DNA of 39,953 nucleotides from positions 1-39,953 of the forward strand of contig JAABTX010000020.1 in the NCBI GenBank assembly GCA_011389655.1. The letters are read 5' to 3'. The notes beneath the pieces are model-generated. The model had not been told where the DNA came from and searched no databases. It saw nothing but the letters and a program-made list of their open reading frames with translations. A program made the position numbers and the translations under genes. The DNA comes from Thioalkalivibrio sp. Its GTDB lineage: Bacteria > Pseudomonadota > Gammaproteobacteria > Ectothiorhodospirales > Ectothiorhodospiraceae. Positions 15,490 through 19,129 of the stretch are shown piece by piece (position 1 is the first letter of the stretch; the number at the start of each line of letters is the position of its first letter).

Positions 15490-15684
15490 GCAAAAAATGC
15501 AGGGATCCCAAAAAAATAAGCGTTCGGCGACAAAGACTTACGCACGCGGATTGCAACGGATGCGGGAGCCGTAAAACGTCCCAAAAGCGGAGTCTTGGGG
15601 GGCTAAGTTAAGAGTTCACTTGAGCTATATGAGGCATTGAGGGGACAGGGGGTCCCGCAGCCGGGGGCATGGGTGGGGAAAAGT

Positions 15685-16038
15685 GGGAGCCGGCCTGTAA
15701 GCCGGGTTCTGTCGAGGACCGTCATTCCTCTGGGACGCCTGTCACCAGACGCCTCGAGCAGCCTACCCGGGTGCGATGCGGGCCACATCATGGCACCCCT
15801 ATTTGGCCTTGCTCCGGACGGGGTTTACCCTGCCACGCACTGTTGCCAGGCGCGCGGTGCGCTCTTACCGCACCATTTCACCCTTACCTGTGGACCGGAC
15901 ACTGCCGGACCCATCGGCGGTATGTTTTCTGTGGCACTTTCCGTCGGCTCGCGCCGCCCAGGCATTACCTGGCGTCCCGCCCTGCGGAGCCCGGACTTTC
16001 CTCCACGCTGGCGCGCAGCGACGATCCGGCCGACTCCC
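15685..16038 (-). ncRNA. rnpB: RNase P RNA (type A)
   Basis: This is the catalytic RNA that trims the 5' leader of tRNA precursors. Conserved segments are visible on the minus strand in the correct order: GAGGAAAGTCCGGGCTCC near the 5' end, ACAGAAAACATACCGCC, GGTAAGGGTGAAATGG followed by GGTAAGAGCGCACC, GGTAAACCCC with GGAGCAAGGCCAAATAGGG, AGAGGAATGACGG, and ACAGAACCCGGCTTAC near the 3' end. The ends were placed by the P1 helix: GGGAGTCGGCC (16038-16028) pairs with GGCCGGCTCCC (15695-15685) with one G-U pair. A matching promoter lies just upstream. The location between rsmI and mraZ is the same as in Pseudomonas. Confidence 0.95.
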
Positions 16039-16045
16039 GCCTCTT

Positions 16046-16074
16046 CTTTTACGCGCCGCCGGGTCCGGACGCAA
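16046..16074 (-). promoter_or_regulatory. Probable rnpB promoter
   Basis: Minus strand: -35 TTGCGT (16074-16069), 17-base spacer, -10 TAAAAG (16051-16046). The hexamers are only moderate (3 and 4 of 6 matches), but the predicted start falls at about 16039, next to the 5' end deduced independently from P1 pairing. Confidence 0.45.
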
Positions 16075-16082
16075 CCGGTGGC

Positions 16083-16164
16083 GCGTCATGCGCAAGCCGC
16101 CAATCGGCGGTGCAGCGCAGCCTGCGCCGAGAAGGCCAGGATGGCTTTACCTTCCGCATGACGC
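16083..16164. repeat. 82-base inverted-repeat unit upstream of rnpB
   Basis: The unit is bounded by GCGTCATGCGCAAG (16083-16096) and its near-perfect inverted copy CTTCCGCATGACGC (16151-16164), 13 of 14 positions matching. Inside are a small hairpin around CCGCCAATCGGCGG and the sequence GCCAGGATGGCTTTAC (16135-16150). The latter recurs as a perfect 16-base inverted copy at 16181-16196, inside the neighbouring palindromic element. It contains no gene. It may be a second small element or part of a larger composite one. It sits just upstream of the proposed rnpB promoter. Confidence 0.55.
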
Positions 16165-16165
16165 A

Positions 16166-16324
16166 CTAGGGAAGCGCTGAGTAAAGCCATCCTGGCTTTC
16201 TCAGCGCACACTGCGCTGCAAATGTGATTTGCAGCTTGCTTCAGAATCAACCACCTGCGGCGGTCGATTCTGGCGGCACTTCCGTGTGCCGCAGGGAAAC
16301 GCCGATAAATCAGCGTTTCCCTAG
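16166..16324. mobile_element. Palindrome-rich MITE-like element between rsmI and rnpB
   Basis: The ends are imperfect inverted repeats: CTAGGGAAGCGCTGA (16166-16180) and TCAGCGTTTCCCTAG (16310-16324), 14 of 15 matching. If CTAG is a 4-base target duplication, the element proper is 16170-16320 (151 bases). Inside are five consecutive dyads: 16174-16207 (15 pairs, one bulge), 16215-16235 (9-base perfect arms), 16242-16272, 16273-16292 (7-base perfect arms) and 16294-16321 (13-base arms, one mismatch). There is no coding capacity. Small size, terminal repeats and a possible target duplication fit a non-autonomous miniature transposable element. The rsmI stop codon TAG lies inside the right-hand CTAG. 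The family is not recognised, and copies elsewhere in the genome cannot be seen from here. Confidence 0.6.
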
Positions 16325-17208
16325 GAAGCCGGGTCCCCGGCTGCGAGCTGCAGGGCGCGAGCGTACAGCCGATTGCGTGCGACTCCGGTGATCCGCACCG
16401 CCAGGCGGACCGCCTGCTTCAGGGGCAGCTCCCCGACCAGGGCACCGAGCACCCGTTCGACCTCTTCCTCCAGTTCCGGATCGCCCCCGGCATTCTGCAT
16501 TGGCCGGTGCGGCGCGATTACCAGCACGAATTCGCCCCGGGTCCGGTTCGGATCCCGCTCGATCCAGCCGGCCAGCATCGACGCCGGGCCGAAGAAGTGT
16601 TCCTCGAACTGCTTGGTCATCTCCCGGGCGAGGAAGATCCCGCGTTCCGGCGCAAGCTCCGCCAGATCCGCCGCGGCGCCAGCAACCCGGTGCCCGGATT
16701 CGAAACAGACCACGGTAACGGGATAGCCCAGCAATGCCCCGAGCCGTTCCCGTCGGGCCGGCCCGGAGGCGGGCAGAAAACCCTCGAAACAGAAGCGGTC
16801 GGAGGGCAGGCCGGCAACGGACAACGCCGCGAGCGCAGCACCGGGACCGGGCACCGGCAGCACCTCGAGCCCCGCCTCGCGGCAGGCCCGCACGAGCCGG
16901 TAACCGGGATCGGAAAGCAGGGGCGTCCCGGCGTCCGACACCAGCGCGAGGTCCTGACCCTGCCGCAGGCCCTCCACGAGCCCGGGGACCCGGGCCTCCT
17001 CGTTGTGCTCGTGCAGGCTCATCAGGGGCGTCGAGATTCCCAGTCGGGACAGCAGGCGCCCGCTGTGACGCGTATCCTCGGCCGCGATCAGATCGACACC
17101 TGCCAGCACCCGACGCGCGCGCGGCGCCAGGTCTTCGAGATTTCCTATTGGCGTGGCGACCACCCAGAGTTTCCCGGGTCGCGTTGACAGCGTGTGGCGC
17201 TCTTTCAA
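16321..17208 (-). CDS. rsmI: 16S rRNA (cytidine-1402 2'-O) methyltransferase
   Basis: RsmI methylates the ribose of C1402 in 16S rRNA, the same nucleotide whose base is modified by RsmH. Seen: an N-terminal tetrapyrrole-methylase-like fold with KLWVVATPIGNLEDL, DLIAAEDTRHSGRLL, SLHEHNE, LVSDAGTPLLSDPGYRLV and VPGPGAALAALSVAGLP, then a C-terminal RsmI extension. No ATG or GTG exists at a suitable place. I chose the TTG at 17206-17208, preceded by GGGGGAG six bases away, which gives 295 residues (E. coli 286). Upstream in-frame codons would run into the divergent lpoA gene. The stop codon lies within the border of the adjacent palindromic element. Confidence 0.92.
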   Translation of the reverse strand: MKERHTLSTRPGKLWVVATPIGNLEDLAPRARRVLAGVDLIAAEDTRHSGRLLSRLGISTPLMSLHEHNEEARVPGLVEGLRQGQDLALVSDAGTPLLSDPGYRLVRACREAGLEVLPVPGPGAALAALSVAGLPSDRFCFEGFLPASGPARRERLGALLGYPVTVVCFESGHRVAGAAADLAELAPERGIFLAREMTKQFEEHFFGPASMLAGWIERDPNRTRGEFVLVIAPHRPMQNAGGDPELEEEVERVLGALVGELPLKQAVRLAVRITGVARNRLYARALQLAAGDPAS

Positions 17209-17212
17209 TACT
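17184..17212 (+). promoter_or_regulatory. Probable lpoA promoter
   Basis: Plus strand: consensus -35 TTGACA (17184-17189), 17-base spacer, -10 AATACT (17207-17212, 4 of 6). The predicted start near 17219 gives a leader of about 24 bases before the lpoA GTG at 17243. The promoter covers the first codons of the divergent rsmI gene. Confidence 0.55.
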
Positions 17213-17242
17213 GGCTCCCCCTCATTGGTCCAAGAACCTGTC

Positions 17243-19129
17243 GTGACTCTAACCCACACCACCCCCTCCACGCCCCGGGCCGCGACAGTGCGGATCCTTG
17301 TGGCCGGGTGCCTCGGCATCCTGCTGGCCGCATGTGCCGCACCCCGACCCGCCCCGCCACCCGCAGCGCCGGAGCCCGAGACGGTCGCGATGAGCCCCGT
17401 GGAACGGGCCGGGAACCTGCTGATCGAGGCCGAGTCCACCCCCGATCCGGGGCCCGCCCGGACCGCGATCGACGCGGTGCTGGTGCTGGACGAACCGAGC
17501 GGTGACCTGGTGCTGCGCGCGGACAGGCTCTGGACGCTGCTGCCCGAGGAAGGGCGCGGCACCCTCGCGGATCGTTACCGCGGGGCGCGTCTGGCGATGC
17601 TGCGCGGCGAATCCGGGCGCGCGTTCGAGCGCCTGCCGCCGGTGGACGAGTCGCCGGACACCCGGCTGTACAGGGACGCGCTGGCACTGCATGCGGAACT
17701 GCTGACGGCGCACGGACCGACGATGGATGCCCTGCTGGCACGGGTGGAACTGGACCCGTACCTGGTCGACCGGCCCGAGAGGCAGAACGCGAACCAGCAG
17801 GCGATCTGGCGGCTGCTTGCAGCGCTGGATCCGGCGGGGCACCGCAGGCTCGGCGCGCTGGAGGAACCGGCGCAGATCCACGGATGGACCGAGCTGTTCC
17901 ATGGGCTGCGCGAGGCCGGCACCGATCCTGACGCCTTCGCAGAGGCGGTCGCTGACTGGAACCGGGTGCATCCCCGCCACCCGGGTCAGCTCCTGCTGCC
18001 GGAACTGCGCGATGCCGCGCTGCGCCCGGTCGATCCACCGGGACGCGTTGCGGTACTGCTGCCACTGACGGGACCTCTCGCCGACCTGGGCAATGCGCTG
18101 CTCGAGGGCATCGCCGCGCAGTTCTACCAGGCCCACGGCACGGGCACCTCCCTGCTGATCCTGGATACCGCGGGTGAGGAGGGTCTCGCGGATGCGGCCT
18201 ACCGCAATGCCCTGCAGCAGGGCGCGGACCGCGTGATCGGCCCGCTGGTGCGCGAGGCGGTGGACCGGGTCGTGACGATCGACTCCAGCGTGCCCACGCT
18301 GCTGCTCAACCATCCGTCCCAATCTCTGCGGGCCCCCTTCTGGGTGCTGTCGCTGTCGCCCGAGGACGACGCCCGGGCCGTCGCGCATCGCGCGCACCGG
18401 CTGGGCCGCGAGAGGGCGCTGGTACTGGTGCCGGAGGGATCGTTCGGCGACCGCGTCGCCACCGCCTTCAGGGAGTCCTTCGAGCACCAGGACGGACGCG
18501 TAACGGCCGAACATCGCTTCGAGGCGCGGGCGCCGGACATCAATGCCCGGATCGGGACCGCGCTGGGCATCGACGCCAGTGAACAGCGCATCCAGCGGGT
18601 GCGGCGCGAGACGCAACTGGAACTGGAGGCGGACGCCCAGATCCGGAGCGACATCGACATGATCTTCGTCGCGGGATCGGCTGCGGACCTGCGGCTCGTG
18701 GTGCCGCACCTCCACTACCACCGGGCGGGACGGCTGCCGATGCTGGCAACGTCGCACGTTTACGAGGGCCGGCCACAGCCTGACCTCGACGTCGACCTGA
18801 GCGGAATCCGTTTCCCGGATGCGCCCTGGCTGCATCCCGACGTCAACCCGGAACCCGGGCTGCTCGCGGAACTGGCCTCCACGGAAGAGGTCGATACCGC
18901 GGCCTCGCGTCTGCCGCGGTTCGCCGCACTCGGGATCGACGCGATGGACGTCGCGGCAGAGCTCCCGCTCTACGGGCGCGCCCCGCATCTCGAGATAGGC
19001 GGGGTCGCCGGAACCTGGCAGCAGCACCCGCCGACGCGGAACTGGGTGCGGCAGCCGGCCTGGCTGGAATTCCATGCCGGACGCATCCGGCCGGCGTCGA
19101 TGCATGCCGCCGCGCCGCAGGAGGATTGA
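17243..19129 (+). CDS. lpoA: LpoA-like outer-membrane lipoprotein activator of PBP1A
   Basis: LpoA is an outer-membrane lipoprotein that reaches through the periplasm to activate the peptidoglycan synthase PBP1A. The 628-residue product has a lipoprotein signal peptide ending in LGILLAAC, so Cys31 would be lipidated. A helical repeat-like N-terminal half follows. The C-terminal half (about 265 onward) is a periplasmic-binding-protein-like domain opening with VAVLLPLTGPLADLGNALLEG. Length is close to E. coli LpoA (678) and Pseudomonas homologues (about 600). The start is a GTG at 17243; a second in-frame GTG at 17288 would leave a shorter signal peptide. The order rsmI, lpoA, yraN is widely conserved and supports the call. 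Confidence 0.88.
   Translation: MTLTHTTPSTPRAATVRILVAGCLGILLAACAAPRPAPPPAAPEPETVAMSPVERAGNLLIEAESTPDPGPARTAIDAVLVLDEPSGDLVLRADRLWTLLPEEGRGTLADRYRGARLAMLRGESGRAFERLPPVDESPDTRLYRDALALHAELLTAHGPTMDALLARVELDPYLVDRPERQNANQQAIWRLLAALDPAGHRRLGALEEPAQIHGWTELFHGLREAGTDPDAFAEAVADWNRVHPRHPGQLLLPELRDAALRPVDPPGRVAVLLPLTGPLADLGNALLEGIAAQFYQAHGTGTSLLILDTAGEEGLADAAYRNALQQGADRVIGPLVREAVDRVVTIDSSVPTLLLNHPSQSLRAPFWVLSLSPEDDARAVAHRAHRLGRERALVLVPEGSFGDRVATAFRESFEHQDGRVTAEHRFEARAPDINARIGTALGIDASEQRIQRVRRETQLELEADAQIRSDIDMIFVAGSAADLRLVVPHLHYHRAGRLPMLATSHVYEGRPQPDLDVDLSGIRFPDAPWLHPDVNPEPGLLAELASTEEVDTAASRLPRFAALGIDAMDVAAELPLYGRAPHLEIGGVAGTWQQHPPTRNWVRQPAWLEFHAGRIRPASMHAAAPQED

Follow-up and report, generated by a model that had tools for sequence, protein, structure and literature searches.

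An IS5-type MITE inserted at the stop codon of rsmI in Thioalkalivibrio sp., and its predicted mobile CsrA/RsmA-binding RNA module

The window analysed here, a stretch of 39,953 nt from Thioalkalivibrio sp., contains a 151-bp MITE of IS5 type inserted at the stop codon of rsmI. We read the element as a mobile RNA module predicted to bind CsrA/RsmA, and give this reading a probability of about 0.6. That the feature is a mobile element is practically certain, and a nucleic-acid fold with strand-specific loops is very probably under selection. Across at least two classes, members of the family keep the fold and have GGA loops that are specific to one strand, and the five-hairpin module occurs with two kinds of ends.

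Insertion site and structure of the window copy

The gene order on the minus strand is rsmI, element, rnpB, in a host genome of 3.46 Mb (assembled in 367 contigs); rsmI, whose ORF is listed from its most upstream GTG, is the upstream neighbour of the element on the strand bearing the GGA loops (Table 1). An earlier note on this DNA had described imperfect 15-base terminal inverted repeats (TIRs) ending in CTAG, with five dyads and no gene between them. All of this was borne out. The arms at 16166-16180 and 16310-16324 are 15 nt long, agree at 14 of 15 positions (93%) and both end in CTAG. The dyads are five minus-strand hairpins, and the folding energy is -94.5 kcal/mol versus -51.1 (sd 3.67) for shuffled sequences (z -11.8; 0 of 200 shuffles were equally stable). 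Of the ORFs that lie entirely within the element, the longest encodes 31 aa (16229-16324, plus strand); two others, of 54 and 55 aa, merely overlap it, as do three that are longer still. The GGA of H1 and that of H4 lie 91 nt apart in sequence. At gathering score the sole Rfam match in the whole window was RNase P (15682-16037, minus); the segment 16267-16321 (minus) matched ivy-DE weakly, at 24.9 bits against a cut-off of 41.4, and the ivy-DE consensus also shows ACAGGGA.

Table 1. Coordinates of the insert, its parts and its neighbours in the window
Feature	Position	Strand	Basis or remark
Left copy of target duplication, CTAG	16166..16169	.	Twice in window, once in closest relative
Right copy of target duplication, CTAG, holding rsmI stop codon TAG	16321..16324	.	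TAG at 16323..16321, minus
MITE proper, 151 bp	16170..16320	+	Multicopy; missing from orthologous site of closest relative
Left TIR, GGAAGCGCTGA	16170..16180	+	Repeat comparison
Right TIR, GGAAACGCTGA (read on minus)	16310..16320	-	Same end on 1208-bp IS
Hairpin H5, right TIR plus internal inverted copy of right TIR	16293..16322	-	Fold, covariation
Hairpin H4, loop ACGGAA, CsrA/RsmA-type context ACACGGAAGU, GGA at 16283..16281	16273..16292	-	Consensus (available part of PMC7652899)
Hairpin H3	16242..16272	-	Fold, covariation
Hairpin H2	16213..16239	-	Fold, covariation
Hairpin H1, includes part of left TIR; loop GGA in CCAGGAUGG, GGA at 16192..16190	16174..16207	-	Predicted fold
Degenerate inverted 59-bp fragment of a second element copy (81%)	16092..16150	-	Between insert and rnpB
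rnpB promoter-like hexamers TTGCGT and TAAAAG, 17 bp apart	16069-16074 and 16046-16051	-	Sequence only
rnpB, RNase P RNA class A, downstream neighbour	15682..16037	-	Rfam
rsmI, host gene	16321..17562	-	TP_methylase, RsmI_C

The closest relative (G003; RsmI 92.8% identical to that of the window genome) has an empty site at the orthologous position, reading TCC TAG TGG, with a single CTAG that already holds the rsmI stop codon. Each CTAG of the window is thus one copy of a 4-bp target duplication, the element proper spans 16170-16320, and the duplication kept the rsmI stop codon in place. The earlier note had proposed a non-autonomous element inserted at a CTAG at the 3' end of rsmI, with the stop codon inside the right-hand CTAG, and had looked to relatives for an empty single CTAG; this is what we found, together with copies in varied flanks and an IS with the same ends. 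Its idea that the element supplies the border of the rsmI stop codon has to be dropped, since the stop codon predates the insertion and was its target, not its product; creation of the stop codon by the element is ruled out by the same empty site.

The covariance model R1, built from 41 copies aligned without structure (alignment A3), matched the window element over its full length at 175.3 bits. In the rsmI-rnpB spacers R1 found no match in the closest relative or in 15 further readable congeners (those spacers being 47 to 433 nt), and two weak matches outside the window genome, at 19.8 and 15.7 bits, both fell within rsmI. A fixed structural RNA of this spacer is ruled out by the lack of an R1 match in the spacers of all 16 other congeners in which it was readable. 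The earlier note had named a single fixed copy with compensatory changes as the case that would speak against mobility: the element is mobile and not fixed, and compensatory change is nevertheless strong across the family.

Together the insert and the 59-bp fragment on its rnpB side can pair as a 59-nt inverted repeat; the stretch occupied by the fragment is absent from the spacer of the closest relative. The rnpB promoter-like hexamers lie beyond the element, are uninterrupted by it and are also found in the empty-site relative, so that no direct effect of the insertion on rnpB is expected.

Copies, target sites and the IS5-family partner

Several further copies with the same ends and different flanks turned up in the genome-wide search that the earlier note had called for. 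In the window genome they show 98, 96 (truncated where its contig ends), 80, 82 (right end not reached) and 73% identity, in addition to two partial copies and the inverted fragment beside the window element. At E 0.001 the element matched 25 of 30 Thioalkalivibrio genomes, its own included, and 6 of 28 genomes of other relatives. Exact 4-bp duplications flank 22 of 59 copies examined (15 of the 22 are YTAR) and 45 of 94 class-wide matches (36 of the 45 are YTAR), two sets that overlap in part. As to the 59 copies, the poorly bounded L090, L120, L124, L125 and L138 were left out, and 16 more, 12 of which are 176-bp-type variants, stood outside A3.

In the class sample R1 matched 56 of 274 genomes at E 0.001 (41 of 221 genera) and 37 of 274 at E 1e-15; among the matches listed, the class-wide ones are full-length and mostly 149-153 bp. 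The phylum sample of 299 genomes gave 44 matching genomes at E 0.001; of these, 41 lie outside the class, and 23 of the 41 also match at E 1e-15. Because chance matches in GC-rich genes reach E 0.00027, the counts at E 0.001 include some chance matches and those at E 1e-15 are the safe ones. Sequence searches of plasmids and phages and an exact pattern scan of viral contigs gave no match.

Some loci deserve mention in their own right. In a single-contig genome (G160, contig C1) we counted 93 and 109 exact YTAR-type ends, with several copies of identical model score, a pattern suggestive of a recent burst. Positions 1077-1708 of L305 (G055) hold three copies that face the same way and start ∼240-250 bp apart. 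A Thioalkalivibrio-type copy in a Halanaerobiaceae MAG (L185, PWFW01000216.1) sits on a contig that is possibly mis-binned, and a lone hairpin in a Lachnospiraceae MAG of another phylum (L180), its core identical to H5, is either a chance match or a terminator. L028, L042 and L045 of the window genome, and perhaps L036 and L037, belong to another repeat family with similar ends, adjoining CTCGCGATGACGG-like sequence.

A pattern search for the ends revealed two 1208-bp units in a congener (G029), identical at 1207 of 1208 positions, with ends of the same type and CTAG at both borders (the target copy on either side is included in the length). They code for a transposase of 321 aa with DDE_Tnp_1 and DUF772 domains (PF01609 and PF05598), which scored 319.3 bits against the NCBIfam model IS5_4 (NF033581; cut-off 140). 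Homologues with at least 70% identity occur in G007 (a fragment), G011, G013, G021, G022 and G029; at E 1e-40 no homologue of this transposase was detected in the window genome, an assembly of 367 contigs. The earlier note had suggested comparing the ends with those of full-length insertion sequences of the genome, and the same ends were indeed found on an IS, but one in a congener rather than in the window genome. The first 15 end bases of this IS and of the MITE are nearly identical (CTAGGGAAACGCTGA and CTAGGGAAACACTGA) and both have CTAG flanks, whereas blastn gave only end-type matches of 14-20 nt plus chance-like words; with similarity confined in this way, the window element is a type II MITE. 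The IS5 family prefers YTAR targets. The MITE duplications show this preference, and both IS copies found in the congener sit in CTAG. From the shared ends and target, an IS5-family DDE transposase is the most likely mover of the element. Altogether the family has TIRs, a target duplication with an empty site, multiple noncoding copies and a partner IS in a congener, as expected of a MITE. REP elements, described in the available part of PMC3733652 as palindromes of 20-40 bp with a GTAG or CGTC tag, were considered and rejected as an identity for the window element, which has 151 bp, TIRs and 4-bp duplications.

G029 also carries other MITE-like units, among them L142, L143 and L144 (288-318 bp), with CTAGGGAGACGCTGATTG ends, nearly the same as those of the window element. 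Dozens of CTAGGGAGACGCTGATTG-type ends occur in this genome and in G005; the TIR type is common and the interior differs.

Conservation of the fold and its combination with different ends

One alternative to a functional RNA is an ordinary type II MITE, in which the TIRs alone matter and the hairpins are by-products of its formation, kept perfect by template switching and unselected. TIRs and YTAR duplications explain the mobility in full, and one control element from another MITE family of G029, with nearly the same TIRs, has long palindromes and no GGA loop on either strand. The fold of the present family can be followed in two alignments. In A3, which was not fitted to a model and on which the counted structure derives from folds of the same copies, 90.2% of cells pair, and the 151 double-change cells compare with 38.5 (sd 4.7) in shuffles, none of 500 reaching the observed count. 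In the alignment of 88 distinct elements, whose fitting to the model favours pairing, 92.4% of cells pair and 774 double-change cells were counted versus 219.7 (sd 12.3) in shuffles (0 of 500) and at most 179 with slid partners. The five hairpins thus persist despite heavy compensatory change of nearly all stem pairs, at a length that stays mostly within 149-153 bp, which argues against unselected by-products. The mismatches are symmetric between the strands, as an ordinary MITE would have them: G-U versus A-C mismatches showed no excess on the proposed RNA strand, with 64 versus 60 in 34 elements (p 0.79) and 150 versus 161 in 94 matches. In A3 less one pair the counts were 70 versus 102 (p 0.018), from cells that are not independent, and this was not repeated in A5.

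The earlier note had expected strong RNA hairpins in either direction. This holds for the stems, but the conserved GGA loops are specific to one strand. The minus-strand sequence of H4 is CA-N-GGA-N-G across the family, and that of H1 is mostly CAGGAUG or CANGGAUG, the H1 loop frequently having just three nucleotides in the predicted fold. In predicted folds GGA lies in both the H1 and H4 loops of 30 of 30 elements. Among 34 non-redundant elements (<80% identical), 33 have at least two GGA apical loops on the rsmI-sense strand, compared with none on the opposite strand (one such loop in 1 of 34) and 6 of 680 dinucleotide shuffles; CA-N(0-1)-GGA-N-G stands at two loops in 25 of the 34 and in 0 of 680 shuffles. 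The three loop columns are 97-100% conserved in these 34 elements, the N positions 53% and 59%, and many stem columns vary. Neither the count of 30 nor that of 34 elements includes L251, a weak match of ambiguous strand. Of all 94 class-wide matches, decayed copies included, 86 keep two or more GGA loops, and both loops were present in 9 of 9 out-of-class elements examined. R1 was trained on copies that already had GGA loops, and its matches may lean towards such loops; the 34 non-redundant elements all score at least 71 bits, which we take to be far above the cost of losing one loop. The R1 run behind these scores covered 88 source loci, with L251, L275 and L306 left out. Template switching would not hold GGA on one strand, in two apical loops, across two classes.

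The interior and the ends can be separated. Nine regions with GAGGG-type ends (GAGGGTGTCGC) were picked out by end pairs spaced about 130-165 bp. Eight of them hold the five-hairpin module, with GGA in two loops of a single strand and in no loop of its complement; the ninth (L350) has a different interior. Clear 5-bp duplications flank five of the eight module regions (L344, L345, L346, L349 and L354). Retention of the module when the TIRs changed is a further point against an ordinary MITE, which we consider unlikely.

Conversely, bare palindromes of YTAR-type ends measure 28 bp in G160 and 26 bp in G148; in two of the four examples the tetramers to the left and right are identical. Such bare TIR palindromes of ∼26-28 bp (L340 and L341 in G160, L352 and L353 in G148, and L188), flanked by YTAR or nearly so, may be the smallest units of this system able to move, and they suggest that the interior is not needed for transposition.

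The interior also varies in length. At one orthologous insertion shared by four congeners, two have the 151-bp form and two the 176-bp form (L100 and L108 versus L116 and L119), as though one interior had been swapped for the other at the same locus; the 176-bp form has an extra hairpin in the H2 region. A longer variant in G160 has, in its predicted fold, an extra GGA hairpin GCCC-AGGGAG-GGGC (GUCC-ACGGAU-GGAC could form too); its ends pair together and H1 is not formed.

Comparison with Csr/Rsm RNAs and proposed role

The loops were compared with known CsrA/RsmA sites, for which the available part of PMC7652899 gives RUACARGGAUGU as the SELEX consensus, CAGGA(U/A/C)G as the repeat that CsrB presents in hairpin loops and ANGGAN as the hexaloop of RsmE. 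The H4 loop closely fits these consensuses, and the H1 context CCAGGAUGG resembles the CsrB-type repeat CAGGAUG. On this analogy CsrA/RsmA is the probable ligand of the loops. The H1-H4 spacing exceeds the 10-63 nt bridging range between CsrA sites given in the same source, unless H2 and H3 shorten the path. The Rfam model of RsmW (RF02809) gives a full-length alignment with the GGA strand at E 0.00037 and 32.3 bits, under its cut-off of 52; searched against the 274 genomes it gave 0 matches, but likewise 0 in control genomes, which makes this zero uninformative. No Rfam Csr/Rsm family matched at gathering score in 8 class loci. With the RsmW score below its cut-off and CsrA binding putative, we do not class the element as a Csr/Rsm sRNA. 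The window genome has csrA, but csrA was not enriched among carriers (49 of 56 carrier genomes versus 186 of 218 non-carriers, p 0.83).

CsrB, RsmY, RsmZ and RsmW share with the element GGA in hairpin loops, a CAGGAUG-type repeat and a ACANGGANGU-type site, and RsmW itself derives from a 3' untranslated region (available part of PMC4950607). The element differs in having two sites instead of many, in being transposon-borne with many copies and in being a putative RNA. TwoAYGGAY (RF01731) and Bacillaceae-1 are RNA families of unknown function, proposed from motif matches alone, that likewise have two CsrA-motif hairpins; the available part of PMC4333381 does not describe them as mobile. RF01731 was not among the matches listed at E 1, where one overlapping match of the RsmW clan is unnamed. 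Correia elements, QMITE2, ERIC and other bacterial MITEs resemble the element in small size, TIRs, target duplications, stable hairpins and possible RNase processing; class-wide covariation or CsrA-type loops are not reported for them in the available part of PMC10969869. No report joining MITEs with CsrA/RsmA binding was found in the open-access journal literature.

The gene neighbourhood of the copies bears on a second alternative: a bidirectional 3'-end structure (a terminator, an exonuclease block or an RNase III/E site) that renders insertions harmless, the GGA loops serving another protein or none. The following counts are noisy, since neighbours were assigned with a rough longest-ORF criterion, which put even the left neighbour of the window copy in the wrong place, and 23 of 138 copies lie inside a called ORF. 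Within 150 nt, 89 called gene ends point at copies versus 61 gene starts, and in 18 of 138 copies the stop codon of a called ORF is the three bases adjoining the element; RNase III is also described as cutting at Correia elements (available part of PMC10969869). The preference for gene ends may simply follow from YTAR containing TAA or TAG, which lets an insertion spare the gene and hairpin clusters abut stop codons, and a 3'-end structure would give no reason for GGA to sit in exactly two loops, both on a single strand; we consider this alternative more doubtful still than the ordinary MITE. The copies showed no orientation bias (45 genes reading into the GGA strand versus 44 into the other), a point that fits the ordinary MITE, and intact loops were not commoner in gene-sense orientation (20 of 25 versus 21 of 24). 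If copies are mostly dead after insertion, this may blunt both the mismatch and the orientation tests.

The least likely alternative, that the fold acts as single-stranded DNA in a transposition complex whose loops are read by transposase or a host replication protein, would likewise give strand-specific loops and covarying stems and agrees with the lack of an RNA-type G-U excess and the TIR sequence in both terminal hairpins, but the 4- or 5-bp duplications and the DDE transposase point to double-strand cut-and-join, the bare 26-28-bp palindromes between YTAR tetramers suggest a dispensable interior, and that interior is common to two different TIR systems.

A mobile module binding CsrA/RsmA therefore stays the preferred reading, and the following course can be proposed. 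The MITE inserted at the CTAG holding the rsmI stop codon, with duplication of the CTAG, and would have brought with it a small structured RNA. Host transcription across the element on the GGA strand would expose the two apical GGA hairpins. It may come from rsmI: this gene and rnpB are both transcribed in the sense of the GGA strand, and read-through from rsmI would make RNA of that strand. CsrA/RsmA could then bind both hairpins, and the element would serve as a binding site or decoy in 3' untranslated RNA or in released fragments, in the manner of CsrB, RsmY or RsmW. An actual decoy or regulatory effect in the cell is a doubtful part of this proposal.

In its general form, the proposal is that CsrA-loop RNA travels as transposon cargo with at least two sets of ends in at least two classes of Pseudomonadota, sowing CsrA-binding sites or decoys across 3' untranslated regions and tuning the Csr/Rsm network; we hold this tentatively, with slightly more confidence than the decoy effect itself. 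One genome has about a hundred elements with such ends, in several lengths. If the general proposal is true, RsmW and some other known Rsm sRNAs could be settled copies. MITEs are usually regarded as two ends plus neutral filler. Here the conserved part is the filler, whose fold and two loops persist when nearly everything else, even the ends, has been replaced. If CsrA/RsmA binds the loops, transposition would act directly on the wiring of a global post-transcriptional regulator, and it would be a source of new Rsm-type sRNAs.
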